This document shows, piece by piece, positions 3,785-8,946 of a stretch of DNA of 59,203 bases. The notes beneath the pieces were generated by a model, which saw only the letters and a program-made list of their open reading frames with translations, did not search any database and was not told the DNA's origin. Made by a program: the position numbers and the translations under genes. The stretch comes from Solirubrobacterales bacterium (GTDB taxonomy: Bacteria; Actinomycetota; Thermoleophilia; Solirubrobacterales; 70-9): contig JAJTCK010000003.1 of NCBI GenBank assembly GCA_021323175.1, positions 1 through 59,203 on the forward strand, written 5' to 3'. Within the stretch, counting starts at the first letter, position 1; every line of letters starts with the position of its first letter.

Positions 3785-3947
3785 TTTGTGGGCTCCTTGC
3801 TCTCTCGGGGTTCCCTGCCGGGCCGGCCACGGATGTTGGCATACGCCGACGGGGGCGGCGCAGGGCCCCATGCCAGGAGTCTGGCGCCGCGGGCCCCACC
3901 CGCCTCCGCTCCCCGCACAGCCAGGCCGGACGGCATAGTCTGAGGCA

Positions 3948-5393
3948 GTGGGAGAGCAGCTCACCGCGCTGGACGCGACCTTCCTCGAGCTGGAGGAGGC
4001 CGACCAGAGCGTCCACATGCACATCGGCGGCGTGGTCTTGATTGATGGGATCGACGGCCGAGGCGCCCCGCCGTTGGAGCGTATCCGCGCCGACGTCCTC
4101 GCCCGCCTGCCGGTGCTACCGCGGTTCTCCGAGCGCCTCTCCTCGCCCTCCACCGGGGGACTGCACTGGCCGAGCTGGGAGGCCGACCCCGACTTCGACG
4201 TCTCGCGCCATGTCTTCGCGGCGGGTCTCCCGGCCCCCGGAGGTCGCCGGGAGCTGCTCGAGTGGGCTGGCGAGTTCTACTCCCAGCGGCTGGACCGAAC
4301 CAGGCCCCTGTGGGAGCTGGTGATCGTGGAGCTCGCCGACGGCAACTGGGCTCTGATCACCAAGACCCACCACTGCATGGTCGACGGCGTCGGCTCCGTC
4401 GACATCGGCAAGACCCTGCTCGACACCCAGCCTGAACCCAGCCCGCCGCCCGAGGCTGCGCCGCGACCCCCCGGAGCGACCGCCCCGCGGGGGAGATCGC
4501 GCCTGCCGTCGCTGCTGCGCCCGGCCGAGGGGCTCACGCGCGCGGGCCTGCGCCTCGCACGCACGGGGCTGCACGCAGCGGAGTCCGCCGCCGGCATGGC
4601 CGCGCACCCGCGCCGTGCGGCCGAGGCGGTATCGCGCGCCCGCGCCCTCGCGGAGCTGGTGGTGCAAGACGAGGTGATCCCCGCCCCGCCCACCAGCCTC
4701 AATGAGCCGATCGGCGCGAAGCGGCGGCTCTTGGTCTTGGAGGCGGAGCTTGACGACCTGCGCCGCATCAAGTCCGTGCTCGGAGGAACCGTCAACGACG
4801 TCGTGCTCGCCGCCGCGGCGGGCGGCCTGCGCCGCCTGCTGCTGGCCCGCGAAGAGCCGCTACCCGAGCAGGGGCTGCGCGCCATGGTGCCGATGAATGT
4901 ACGCGAAGCGGGCGAGCGCCTGGCACTCGGCAACCGGATCTCATCGCTGTTCGTGCACCTGCCGGTCAGCGCCGACGACCCGGCGGAGCGCTACTCGATG
5001 CAACTGGAAGAGGCGGAGGGGATGAAGGCGGGAACGCAGGCGATGGGCTCCAGCACGCTCCTCGACTTGACCGAGCACATGCCGCCCGTTCTCCACAGCT
5101 TCGTGGCGCGCTCGCTGTTCGCCACCCGACTGTTCAACGTCACGATCACGAACGTCCCCGGGCCGCAGACGCCGCTGTACTGCTTCGGATCGCGGGTTCG
5201 CGAGATCTGGCCGCTGGTCCCCATCGCCGCCGAGCACGCGGTCGGCCTAGCCGTCTTCAGCTACGACGGCACCCTCTTCTTCTGCCTGAACCTGGACCGC
5301 GACAGCTGCACCGACGCCGACGTGCTGGCCGAGGGAATCGCCGATTCGCTCGCCGAGCTGGGCGCTTTGGCTGGGGACAAGACGGCAGCATGA
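3948..5393 (+). CDS. wax ester synthase / diacylglycerol O-acyltransferase (WS/DGAT)
   Basis: This 481-residue acyltransferase of the WES/DGAT family transfers acyl groups from acyl-CoA to fatty alcohols or diacylglycerol and supports neutral lipid storage in Actinobacteria. The catalytic HHxxxDG motif is present as [10 protein letters not shown] (about residue 141). The conserved N-terminal [13 protein letters not shown] and a C-terminal block with [11 protein letters not shown] are also typical. GTG at 3948 gives the standard N-terminus. The gene is divergent from pckG, and a small membrane protein follows 13 nt after its stop. Substrate preference (wax ester or triacylglycerol) is not predictable here. 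Confidence 0.93.
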
Positions 5394-5406
5394 CGAGGTT
5401 CGTTGG

Positions 5407-5649
5407 GTGAGGGAAGCCTTCGAGAAGTTCAGGGTTGTGTTCTGGGCGTTGACGGCCGGTGTCCTGGGCCTCTATCTCTTCGGCCTCTTCTTGGGCATCT
5501 ACAGCCCGCTGCAGCTCGGCGCTCTCAGCATCGTCTGCCTGGTGCTGCTGGTGATGTTCGCGATCCACGAGGTCCGACTGCGGCGAGAGCTGCGCGCGAA
5601 CCCTCCGCGGGAGCTCGACCACAGCGACCGTGAGCGGAGGGGTTGGTAG
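5407..5649 (+). CDS. small two-helix membrane protein
   Basis: This 80-residue protein is unrecognised. Two hydrophobic segments are visible, about residues 9-30 (VVFWALTAGVLGLYLFGLF) and 36-53 (LQLGALSIVCLVLLVMFAI). A strongly charged tail rich in Arg and Glu follows. The GTG start at 5407 lies 13 nt after the WS/DGAT stop, so the two are likely cotranscribed. It could be an integral membrane partner at lipid-droplet or membrane sites, but that rests only on position. The composition is typical of real coding sequence and not of an antisense shadow. Confidence 0.65.
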   Translation: MREAFEKFRVVFWALTAGVLGLYLFGLFLGIYSPLQLGALSIVCLVLLVMFAIHEVRLRRELRANPPRELDHSDRERRGW

Positions 5650-5702
5650 GAGCCTCCTCGCCGCCTCAGACTCCCATAGGGCTCGCCGCTCGGAGGTGAG
5701 AC

Positions 5703-6326
5703 TCAGGTGCCACCCAGCTCCTCGTAGAGCTCGGCAACGAGGCGGTCGACGGTGAGCTGAACGGGCTTGCTGAGGCCCTCGCCCGACGAGAACTCCCGGC
5801 CCTCGATCCCATAGACGGCGAGGCGCCGCGGCAGCCGCCCGAGCTCGCGCGCCAGCTCGACGGCCTCGGCGATCCCGAGCGCATGCGTGGAGGGCCGGAA
5901 GAGCTCGGCGGGGAGTGGGTCCTTGCCCACCTCGAAGCGATGGAGCGTGCCTGGCTTGGCGTCCGAGCTGACCCCGTCGATCACCAGCGCCTCGTCGGCC
6001 CCGCTCCATGCCTCGAGCAGCGAGGCGGGCTCCCCCTCCTGCTCGGCGATCATGACGCCGGGGGGGTCGGCCTGGCGCAGGCGGCGGGCGACCTCGAGTC
6101 CAGCCGCGTCGTCGCGCCTGAACTGATTGCCGACGCCGATCAGCGCCAGCCGCTTGCGCTCGGCCCTCTCGGCTTCAAGCGGCACGTGGATCCCGATCCG
6201 GTCGGCCAGCTCGCGGGCGTGCTCGATGTCCTGGACGAGGTGGTCGCGGTGGCGCTCCATGACATGCAACTCGGCCCGGCCGTGCTGCAGGTAGAGCCGC
6301 TCATCGTGCAGAAATGCGGGGTCCAT
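5703..6326 (-). CDS. NiFe-hydrogenase maturation protease (HycI/HybD family), orphan
   Basis: This endopeptidase family removes the C-terminal tail of a hydrogenase large subunit after nickel insertion. The catalytic domain begins at about residue 55 with LALIGVGNQFRRDDAAGLEV, the classical GxGN..RxDDxxG motif. Further on are VIDGV (metal-ligand Asp), STHALGIAEAVELA (metal-ligand His) and VYGIEGREFSSGEGLS. Together these cover the whole fold. About 54 residues precede the domain, which is unusual for a family of 150-170 residues. The start is uncertain (ATG 6326, or TTG 6365 giving 220 aa). Immediately upstream is only the last 36 codons of a hydrogenase large subunit, so its substrate is missing here. 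Confidence 0.85.
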   Translation of the reverse strand: MDPAFLHDERLYLQHGRAELHVMERHRDHLVQDIEHARELADRIGIHVPLEAERAERKRLALIGVGNQFRRDDAAGLEVARRLRQADPPGVMIAEQEGEPASLLEAWSGADEALVIDGVSSDAKPGTLHRFEVGKDPLPAELFRPSTHALGIAEAVELARELGRLPRRLAVYGIEGREFSSGEGLSKPVQLTVDRLVAELYEELGGT

Positions 6327-6369
6327 CGGAGGGTGACTGCCCGGCCGGTGAAAGAAGTGCCGCAAGGGG

Positions 6370-6480
6370 TCAGCCCCGATCCGCCTGGAGCTTCAGGAAC
6401 TGGGTCGGGCAGGAGATGCAGGGATCGTAGTTGCGGGCTCCCCGAAACGCGCGGAGGAAGGGGTTGCGGCACTCCTCAAC
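6370..6480 (-). pseudogene. relic of NiFe-hydrogenase large subunit C-terminus
   Basis: A minus-strand frame ending at TGA (6372-6370) reads VEECRNPFLRAFRGARNYD followed by PCISCPTQFLKLQADRG. This matches the C-terminal nickel-binding end of NiFe-hydrogenase large subunits (DPCxxCxxH/R), except that the usual final His/Arg is Gln. The stop lies just before the maturation protease, the normal operon order. No in-frame ATG, GTG or TTG is present close upstream, and the rest of the large subunit is absent because sucC starts at 6535 on the other strand. I read it as a gene remnant. A separately made mini-subunit, as in VhuU-type hydrogenases, is the alternative. Confidence 0.6.
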
Positions 6481-6534
6481 GGGGGTCGAGGAGGCTGCAC
6501 CGCAGAGGGGGACTGAATAGCCTTCCCCGCCGCC

Positions 6535-7755
6535 ATGCGCTTCTACGAGTACGAGAGCCGCCGAATCGTCGAGCAGGCCGGGATCCCGGTCACCGAGTAC
6601 GGGTTCGCGAAGACGGGGACCGAGGCGCGGGAAGCTGCGGGGCGAATCGGCGGGCCGACCGTCATCAAGTCCCAGGTGCTGACGGGGGGACGGATGAAGG
6701 CGGGAGGAGTCAAATTCGCAGACACGCCCGAGGAGGCCGAGGCGCACGCCGAGCAGATCCTGAAGCTCGAGATCGGCGGACACATGCCGGTCGGCGTGCT
6801 GGTGGACCCGAAAGCCGAAGTCGAGCATGAGTACTACGCCGCCGTGCTCTGGGACGGGCGCGCCAAGCGGCCGATGATGCTGTTCAGCGACATGGGCGGG
6901 ATCGACATCGAGCAGGTGGCCGAGGACCACCCCGACCACGTGGGCCGGGGGCATCTCTCGAACCTCCACCCCATCCCCGACTTCCGCGCCAAGGAGGTGA
7001 TCGCCGCGGCCGGGGGGCTGACCGGCCGCGAGCTCACCCGCGCCACCCCGATCCTGGCCAGCCTGGCCAGGCTTCAGCGCGACTACGACATGACCCTGGC
7101 CGAGATCAACCCACTCGCGCGCCTCTCGGACGGCTCATTCGTCGCCCTGGACGCGCACATGGAGATGGAGGACGAGGCGGTCGGGCGGCATCAGAGGGTG
7201 CTGACCGAGATCGGAGTCGAACTGGATCAGCCGCGCGAGCTGTATGAGCCGTCGGACTTCGAGCGCAACGTCAAGGCGATCGACGATGCCGATCACCGCG
7301 GGGTCATCCAGGGCAAGGACCACGGCTTCGTCGGCGACCTCGGTCTGGTGATCGGCGCCGGCGGCGGCTCGCTCACCCTCACCGACGCGGTCCGCAGCCA
7401 GGGCGGCAAGCCGGCCAACTACGCCGAGATCGGGGGCAACCCCTCAGTGGCCAAGTCAAAGGGGCTCGCGATGGAGGTCCTGAAGAAGGACGGCGTCGAA
7501 AAGATCGCGGTAATGATGTCCATCGTCTCCAATACTCGGGTTGACATCGTCGCTCGAGGCGTGATCGCAGCGTGCCTGGAGATGGGTAGGGACCCCGCCG
7601 AGACAATCGCGGTCTTCCGCATCCCGGGCGCCTGGGAGGAGGAGGGAGCGAAGATCCTGGGCAAGTACGGCGTCGAGTTTCGCGACCGGGGGACCTCCAT
7701 GTGGGAGGCGGCCGGCGAGGCCGTCGAGAAAGTGCAGGGAGGCGCGGGTTCCTGA
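6535..7755 (+). CDS. succinyl-CoA ligase-like acyl-CoA synthetase, beta subunit (ATP-grasp)
   Basis: This 406-residue ATP-grasp subunit pairs with the alpha subunit downstream to couple acyl-CoA formation or cleavage to ADP/ATP. The N-terminus FYEYESRRIVEQAGIPV and the TVIKSQVLTGGRMKAGGVKF block are SucC-like, as is LAEINPLARLSDGSFVALDA. The C-terminal CoA-ligase half diverges from canonical SucC (GLVIGAGGGSLTLTDAV, NYAEIGGNPS). The substrate may therefore not be succinate; malate, citrate or another acid is possible. The ATG at 6535 lacks a strong Shine-Dalgarno sequence. Its TGA overlaps the alpha-subunit ATG by 1 nt (TGATG). Confidence 0.85.
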   Translation: MRFYEYESRRIVEQAGIPVTEYGFAKTGTEAREAAGRIGGPTVIKSQVLTGGRMKAGGVKFADTPEEAEAHAEQILKLEIGGHMPVGVLVDPKAEVEHEYYAAVLWDGRAKRPMMLFSDMGGIDIEQVAEDHPDHVGRGHLSNLHPIPDFRAKEVIAAAGGLTGRELTRATPILASLARLQRDYDMTLAEINPLARLSDGSFVALDAHMEMEDEAVGRHQRVLTEIGVELDQPRELYEPSDFERNVKAIDDADHRGVIQGKDHGFVGDLGLVIGAGGGSLTLTDAVRSQGGKPANYAEIGGNPSVAKSKGLAMEVLKKDGVEKIAVMMSIVSNTRVDIVARGVIAACLEMGRDPAETIAVFRIPGAWEEEGAKILGKYGVEFRDRGTSMWEAAGEAVEKVQGGAGS

Positions 7756-8693
7756 TGTCGATCCTGCTGAACAAGGACTTCACCTTCATCGTGCAGGGCA
7801 TCACGGGCCGCGAGGCGGTCAACCTGACCAGGGAGTGCCTGGACTACGGCTCCAAGGTGGTCGGCGGCGTCACGCCGGGCCGTAAGGGCCGCGAGGTCCA
7901 CGGCGTCTCCGTCTTCGACACCGTCGCGCAGGCCATCGAGAACCACGGCTCGCCGATCGACGGCTCGGTCGTGACCGTTCCCCCCGCCTTCACCAAGGAC
8001 GCCGTGTTCGAGGCGATCGAGAACGGCATCGGACTGATCGTCGTCGTCACCGAGAGGATTCCGCGCCTGGACGTCGCGCAGATGGTCGAGCTCGCAGACG
8101 AGCGCGGCGCGCGCATCGTCGGGCCGAACTGCCTTGGCCTGATCGCGCCCGGCGTCTGCAAGATGGGGGGGATCGGCGGACCCGCCAAGGACGCCGCCAA
8201 GGCCTACAGCCCGGGCAGCGTCGGGGTGATGTCGCGTTCGGGGGGGATGACGACCGAGATCTCCTCGACCCTGACAGCCGCGGGCCTGGGCGTCTCCACG
8301 GCTGTCTCGATCGGCGGCGACGCGATCATCGGCTCGACCTACGCCGAGCTGATGCCGCTGTTCGAGGCGGACGACCAGACGCAGGCGATCGTGATCTACA
8401 CCGAGCCGGGCGGCCGCATGGAGGCCGAGCTGGTGGACTGGCGCAGTGAGGCCGGGTCCGAGCTGCCCATCGTCGCCTTCATGGCCGGCAAGTTCATGGA
8501 CGACGAGGAGATGAAGGGCATGAGCTTCGGTCACGCCGGGACCATCGTGGAGGGGGCCGAGGACTCGGCCACCCAGAAGATCGCCCGCCTGCAGGACGCC
8601 GGCATCCCGGTCGTCGAGCGGATCGACGAGATCCCCGGCGCCGTCAAGGTGAAGCTTGCGGTGGGCGCTCCGGCCGGAGCGCGAGGAATGTGA
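7755..8693 (+). CDS. succinyl-CoA ligase-like acyl-CoA synthetase, alpha subunit
   Basis: This 312-residue CoA-binding subunit is SucD-like. FIVQGITGREAVNLTRECL (about residues 12-30) is the CoA-binding Rossmann start, and GGVTPGRKG and GPNCLGLIAPG are family blocks. SFGHAGTIVEG (about residue 258) carries the histidine phosphorylated during catalysis. The ATG at 7755 is inside TGATG, so it is translationally coupled to the beta subunit. The frame also stays open a little upstream, but that would run into the partner gene. A small ferredoxin starts 7 nt after the stop. That is not the usual sucCD context and hints at a pathway-specific enzyme. Confidence 0.87.
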   Translation: MSILLNKDFTFIVQGITGREAVNLTRECLDYGSKVVGGVTPGRKGREVHGVSVFDTVAQAIENHGSPIDGSVVTVPPAFTKDAVFEAIENGIGLIVVVTERIPRLDVAQMVELADERGARIVGPNCLGLIAPGVCKMGGIGGPAKDAAKAYSPGSVGVMSRSGGMTTEISSTLTAAGLGVSTAVSIGGDAIIGSTYAELMPLFEADDQTQAIVIYTEPGGRMEAELVDWRSEAGSELPIVAFMAGKFMDDEEMKGMSFGHAGTIVEGAEDSATQKIARLQDAGIPVVERIDEIPGAVKVKLAVGAPAGARGM

Positions 8694-8700
8694 GGCCCTG

Positions 8701-8946
8701 ATGCCCGAGCGCGATGCGATCTTCATCGGGATCGTCGTCGACGACTCGATCGCGGGCGATGCCGAGATGGCCTCCAAGCTCGAGGAGGTCTGCCCCGTCG
8801 ACATCTACGCCGACGCCGACGGCAAGGTGGAGATCGTCGATGAAAACGTCGACGAGTGCGTCCTCTGTGAGCTCTGCATCCAGGCGGCGCCCCCGGGCAA
8901 GGTCGTCGTCAAGAAGCTGTACGACGGCACCGAGCTAAAGCGCTAG
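8701..8946 (+). CDS. FixX-like single-cluster ferredoxin
   Basis: This 81-residue protein has a cysteine layout for one [4Fe-4S] cluster: CPVDIY (about residue 35) and CVLCELC (about residues 55-61). The order, with CP first and CxxCxxC second, resembles FixX-type ferredoxins that accompany ETF-quinone oxidoreductases. ATG at 8701 lies 7 nt after the SucD-like stop, and an upstream in-frame start would overlap that gene. Its position between a SucCD-like enzyme and an acyl-CoA ligase suggests electron transfer tied to acyl-CoA metabolism. No oxidoreductase partner is visible beside it. Confidence 0.75.
   Translation: MPERDAIFIGIVVDDSIAGDAEMASKLEEVCPVDIYADADGKVEIVDENVDECVLCELCIQAAPPGKVVVKKLYDGTELKR

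Follow-up and report, generated by a model that had tools for sequence, protein, structure and literature searches.

Relic of a NiFe-hydrogenase large-subunit gene beside an apparently intact maturation protease gene in a Solirubrobacterales genome

On the minus strand of a 59,203-nucleotide stretch of DNA from a Solirubrobacterales bacterium (contig JAJTCK010000003.1 of assembly GCA_021323175.1; hereafter the window), what looks like the very end of a NiFe-hydrogenase large-subunit gene precedes a gene for a hydrogenase maturation protease. Why should a hydrogenase be represented by its last residues, and its protease by a seemingly complete gene? The first-pass annotation of the window offered two answers: that a hydrogenase operon was deleted and its protease survived, or that the tail is a separate mini-subunit of the VhuU type.

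The end of a large-subunit gene

The tail (6373-6438, minus strand, ARNYDPCISCPTQFLKLQADRG, followed by a stop codon at 6370-6372) had been read as the C-terminal nickel-site signature of a NiFe-hydrogenase large subunit, and this reading was upheld with a HyhL profile. The profile combines large-subunit sequences from 26 relatives, at loci identified via their protease genes. When this profile was run against 1181 six-frame segments of the window, the tail was recovered with an E-value of 1.1e-6 and the runner-up with an E-value of 2.3; in a single-sequence search the tail scored 27.7 bits (E 6.9e-11). Curated profiles match it weakly (48 residues; PF00374, 11.6 bits, E 0.13; NCBIfam, E 0.0098). 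The large subunit of a hydrogenase-bearing genome of the same family (G063) has a single match in the whole genome under study, and that match is the tail, which aligns with residues 410-431 of 432 at 68% identity. Judged by its sequence, the hyhL relic at 6370-6438 (minus strand; the C-terminal 22 codons plus stop) is the C-terminus of a large subunit of group-3b type (HyhL), a subgroup that we take from operon architecture and motif on general knowledge rather than from formal classification.

Akin to the large subunits of that group, the tail carries the RNYDPCISC motif and precedes a protease gene. Of 15 columns that are near-invariant in the relatives, it differs in two, with Ala in place of Ile and Gln in place of the nickel-site His. 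The nickel site thus keeps DPCISC with both cysteines and reads DPCISCPTQ, in departure from the DPCxxCxxH motif of group 3b; the final Gln had been noticed at the outset, and the His that it replaces proved invariant in 26 of 26 relatives. In these enzymes protease cleavage follows the last nickel-site residue of DPCxxCxxH. Neither an N-terminal Cys pair nor a full-length body accompanies the tail: what is left, in contrast to a group 3b HyhL, is the end of the gene by itself, with a probable internal deletion and with the partner genes absent. The tail is a homologous relic rather than a working group 3b large subunit.

The claim that the rest of the large subunit is absent holds for the genome at large, which contains no other match, but a probable second scrap of hyhL lies next to the tail (6439-6513, minus strand, same frame). 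These 25 codons, situated between the tail and DNA common to the region upstream of sucC in relatives, hold the hexapeptide ECRNPF (6457-6474). The G063 large subunit contains the same six residues 113 codons ahead of RNYDPC, and frame and order agree. A shared run of at least six residues with the G063 protein arose in 18 of 20000 null peptides, and the alignment score of the segment was equalled in 29 of 5000 nulls, so that an origin about 113 codons upstream in hyhL has a p-value of about 0.001-0.006. The case for this piece comes solely from the protein comparison with the closest relative: similarity at the DNA level was not significant (200 of 2000 nulls), the HMM score of the segment on its own was negative, and its codon signal is lost (codon score 0.01). 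That the relic is a 3' end of hyhL with an internal deletion we regard as probable but not proven.

Partner genes and the operons of relatives

In the 26 relatives the large subunit ends in RN[YH]DPCISC(A/S)(T/A)H and the protease gene follows directly or overlaps it; in a few cases the large subunit is clipped by the ends of the analysed stretch or by masked bases. One such locus (L127) reads, in order, a cyclic-nucleotide-binding-type protein, an FAD/NAD-binding subunit, the small subunit, the large subunit and the protease, an arrangement that is of group-3b type.

None of the expected company was found in the genome under study, where PF00374 has zero profile matches and where HypD and the zinc-finger protein HypF are absent. 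It holds one PF01058 protein, compared with two each in G063 and in another relative, G002; the one present is presumably the respiratory NuoB and not a hydrogenase-type small subunit, so that the second PF01058 protein is missing together with HypD and HypF. The genome of the same genus (G001) likewise lacks a large subunit, a hydrogenase-type small subunit, HypD and HypF. The absence of hydrogenase genes from the genome appears strong but not absolute: the assembly is a metagenome-type draft (93.58% complete, 169 contigs), and an operon could lie on a missing contig, which counts against operon loss.

These absences bear directly on the second of the two answers. VhuU is the small selenocysteine subunit of the F420-non-reducing hydrogenase of methanogens, a short peptide with a C-terminal nickel-site motif, and a tail of that kind would complete a truncated large subunit encoded elsewhere. 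The tail is indeed a short polypeptide with a C-terminal Cys motif, and it matches the VhuU model very weakly (E 0.023, below the cut-off). Unlike VhuU, however, it has no partner: a search of the genome for another large subunit lacking its C-terminal motif, or for hyp genes that would serve nickel loading, found neither. With the final His changed to Gln and no start codon in a plausible context, we give the mini-subunit next to no credence.

The first answer fared better, the partner genes being absent here and the large subunit standing beside the protease in relatives. We put at about 0.83 the probability that a hydrogenase operon was lost, in place or as a relocated copy, and that its protease survived as an orphan. 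The ancestor would have had an operon for a cytosolic NiFe-hydrogenase of group-3b type, with the genes for the large subunit and the maturation protease at its end, as in several relatives, and nearly the whole operon would have been lost from this lineage together with the hyp genes; we infer the order, place and timing of this loss, as well as the loss of the original function. Left behind would be the protease gene and a 3' end of hyhL that is non-functional and has probably suffered an internal deletion. Loss is supported by the distribution of hyp genes in the family, since HypD occurs in five genomes, precisely the five in which the large subunit has strong matches. On this reading the case would document the loss of a group-3b-type hydrogenase and its hyp genes in one lineage.

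The maturation protease and its N-terminal extension

A complete protease directly after the tail had also been claimed. The protease is intact, as claimed, but its core (5703-6149, minus strand) starts about 220 nucleotides past the stop codon of the tail. The open reading frame (5703-6365, minus strand) encodes 220 residues from a TTG start and 207 from the ATG at 6326. Its product matches TIGR00072 over residues 75-217 with 106.5 bits (E 1.1e-30; cut-off 47.45) and the HycI family PF01750 with 45.2 bits (E 1.1e-11; cut-off 23), and all 22 near-invariant residues of the core are kept. So are the conserved positions that we take, from knowledge of HybD, to be the metal ligands, namely the acidic residue in GxGNxxRxDD, the Asp of a VIDG-type strand and the His of STH. 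An AlphaFold model (mean pLDDT 76.6, from an alignment of two sequences) matches the HybD and HycI structures, and a sequence search against structures returned 5IJA with an E-value of 2.6e-7.

By profile and metal-ligand positions the protein can be assigned to peptidase family M52 (HycI/HybD type; TkHybD, 5IJA; E. coli HybD, 1CFZ), with which it shares the full core, the metal-binding acidic and His positions and the fold; in contrast to these enzymes, it occurs without any hydrogenase in the genome and carries a coding N-terminal extension of about 59 residues unseen in its relatives. Maturation proteases of this kind cut a short peptide from the C-terminus of the large subunit after nickel insertion, as established for HycI (PMC7654741). 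The protein would thus be a putative hydrogenase-cleaving enzyme whose substrate is absent from the genome, and with its substrate gone it would have been orphaned either too recently for decay or with some use for which it was kept.

The undamaged state of the protease fits recent orphaning or a retained use, and plain loss does not predict it unless the loss was recent. An alternative that leaves the loss of the hydrogenase unchanged is that the orphan has been selected for a new job, on another substrate or without proteolysis, the helical extension being part of the new protein. In a tree of 27 proteins the protease pairs with that of G063 (support 95/86), as operon loss would have it. Its branch measures 0.49, against 0.52 in this hydrogenase-bearing sister, and the codon usage of core and extension is still that of the genome; branch length and codon usage, like the 22 retained residues set against the two departures in the tail, speak for such selection. 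Recent loss accounts for the same facts, however; the contrast between 0 of 22 and 2 of 15 is not significant, and there is neither a known nor a suggested alternative substrate, so that we consider a new job unlikely. With operon loss as the preferred reading, the relic is ordinary genome decay, and the mildly interesting points are the intact protease and its unfamiliar extension.

The extension (6150-6326, minus strand) had been given as 54 residues long; it is present, with a length of about 59 residues from the ATG at 6326 or 71 from the TTG at 6365, which is a possible start. The proteases of relatives start at most about a dozen residues before the core. Since the codon score of the extension equals that of the core (0.50 against 0.52 bits per codon) and exceeds those of all 7581 wrong-frame segments, the extension is or was coding. 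The structure model predicts one long helix for it (residues 3-43). No credible homologs were found in 399 genomes of the class or 397 of the phylum, where the phylum search returned nothing at an E-value of 0.001. Two candidates were rejected: (i) a pyruvate-kinase fragment, suggested by matches of 30-35% to the pyruvate kinases of one family, for which there is no Pfam domain and whose E-values are about what chance would give with 399 genomes; (ii) kinship to a 54-residue open reading frame of another genome (G052), whose similarity is weak and helix-like only. The extension may have arisen by fusion with a small gene or as an addition specific to this lineage.

Maturation proteases are generally held to be dedicated to one hydrogenase each (PMC7654741), and a protease that persists in a genome with no hydrogenase at all would put the one-protease-one-hydrogenase rule to a simple natural test. 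Nothing relevant to orphan maturation proteases emerged from a literature search. The case also advises caution, a maturation protease gene alone being a poor basis for inferring hydrogen metabolism.

The gap between PEPCK and sucC

The relic sits between a gene for PEPCK on the minus strand and a sucC-like gene on the plus strand. Comparison of the locus with related genomes, which the first-pass annotation had recommended, revealed an intact tail before the protease in the 26 relatives, and PEPCK and sucC in the same orientation on either side of a gap in eight. This gap is 257-601 bp long in six of the eight relatives and holds different cargo in the others. In G001 it measures 1242 bp (L119:5049-6291) and contains pieces of a universal-stress protein (Pfam Usp, E 2.2e-11); in G013 it measures 1723 bp (L120:4871-6594) and contains an amine-oxidase-like open reading frame, identified by eye on the strength of its motif. 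In the window the variable region (3785-6534) is occupied by a WS/DGAT gene, a small membrane-type open reading frame partly shared with G001, and the hydrogenase relic. The gap thus looks, from these comparisons, like a tolerated insertion site. A relic common to this genome and G001 was considered and rejected, the gap of G001 holding universal-stress-protein debris instead.

Could the hydrogenase sequence have been put beside sucC by a chimeric joint in the assembly? In a metagenome-type draft the junctions are known from the contig sequence alone. Yet the relic lies in mid-contig, and the syntenic flanks on both sides of the gap imply that the contig continues correctly in either direction, which makes a chimera very unlikely.

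Operon loss itself leaves the place of the lost operon open and is compatible with a further reading, in which the end of hyhL and the protease were copied or moved into the gap from an operon elsewhere in the ancestor, the operon being lost separately. The hydrogenase of G002 (contig 3) lies far from its PEPCK-sucC locus (contig 1), and the gap gathers unrelated cargo in G001, G013 and the genome under study, as such a move would lead one to expect, but there is no direct sign of the move, and we hold relocation to be somewhat short of an even chance.

Several minor features of the region may be recorded here. The small membrane-type open reading frame (5407-5649) encodes 80 residues without a Pfam match, and the gap of G001 encodes a conserved counterpart of its C-terminal half (64% over 39 residues). 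The broken universal-stress-protein gene of G001 (L119:5183-5996) has inside it a short tandem repeat of about 35 bases (GCCGCCGGGGCCGACAC...). At 6535-8946 the window carries a second succinyl-CoA-ligase-like pair of sucC/sucD type, followed by a small ferredoxin-like open reading frame with the Cys motif CVLCELC and no Pfam match. Almost all genomes of the family have a second, divergent sucC paralog, which lies on contig 89 in the genome under study.
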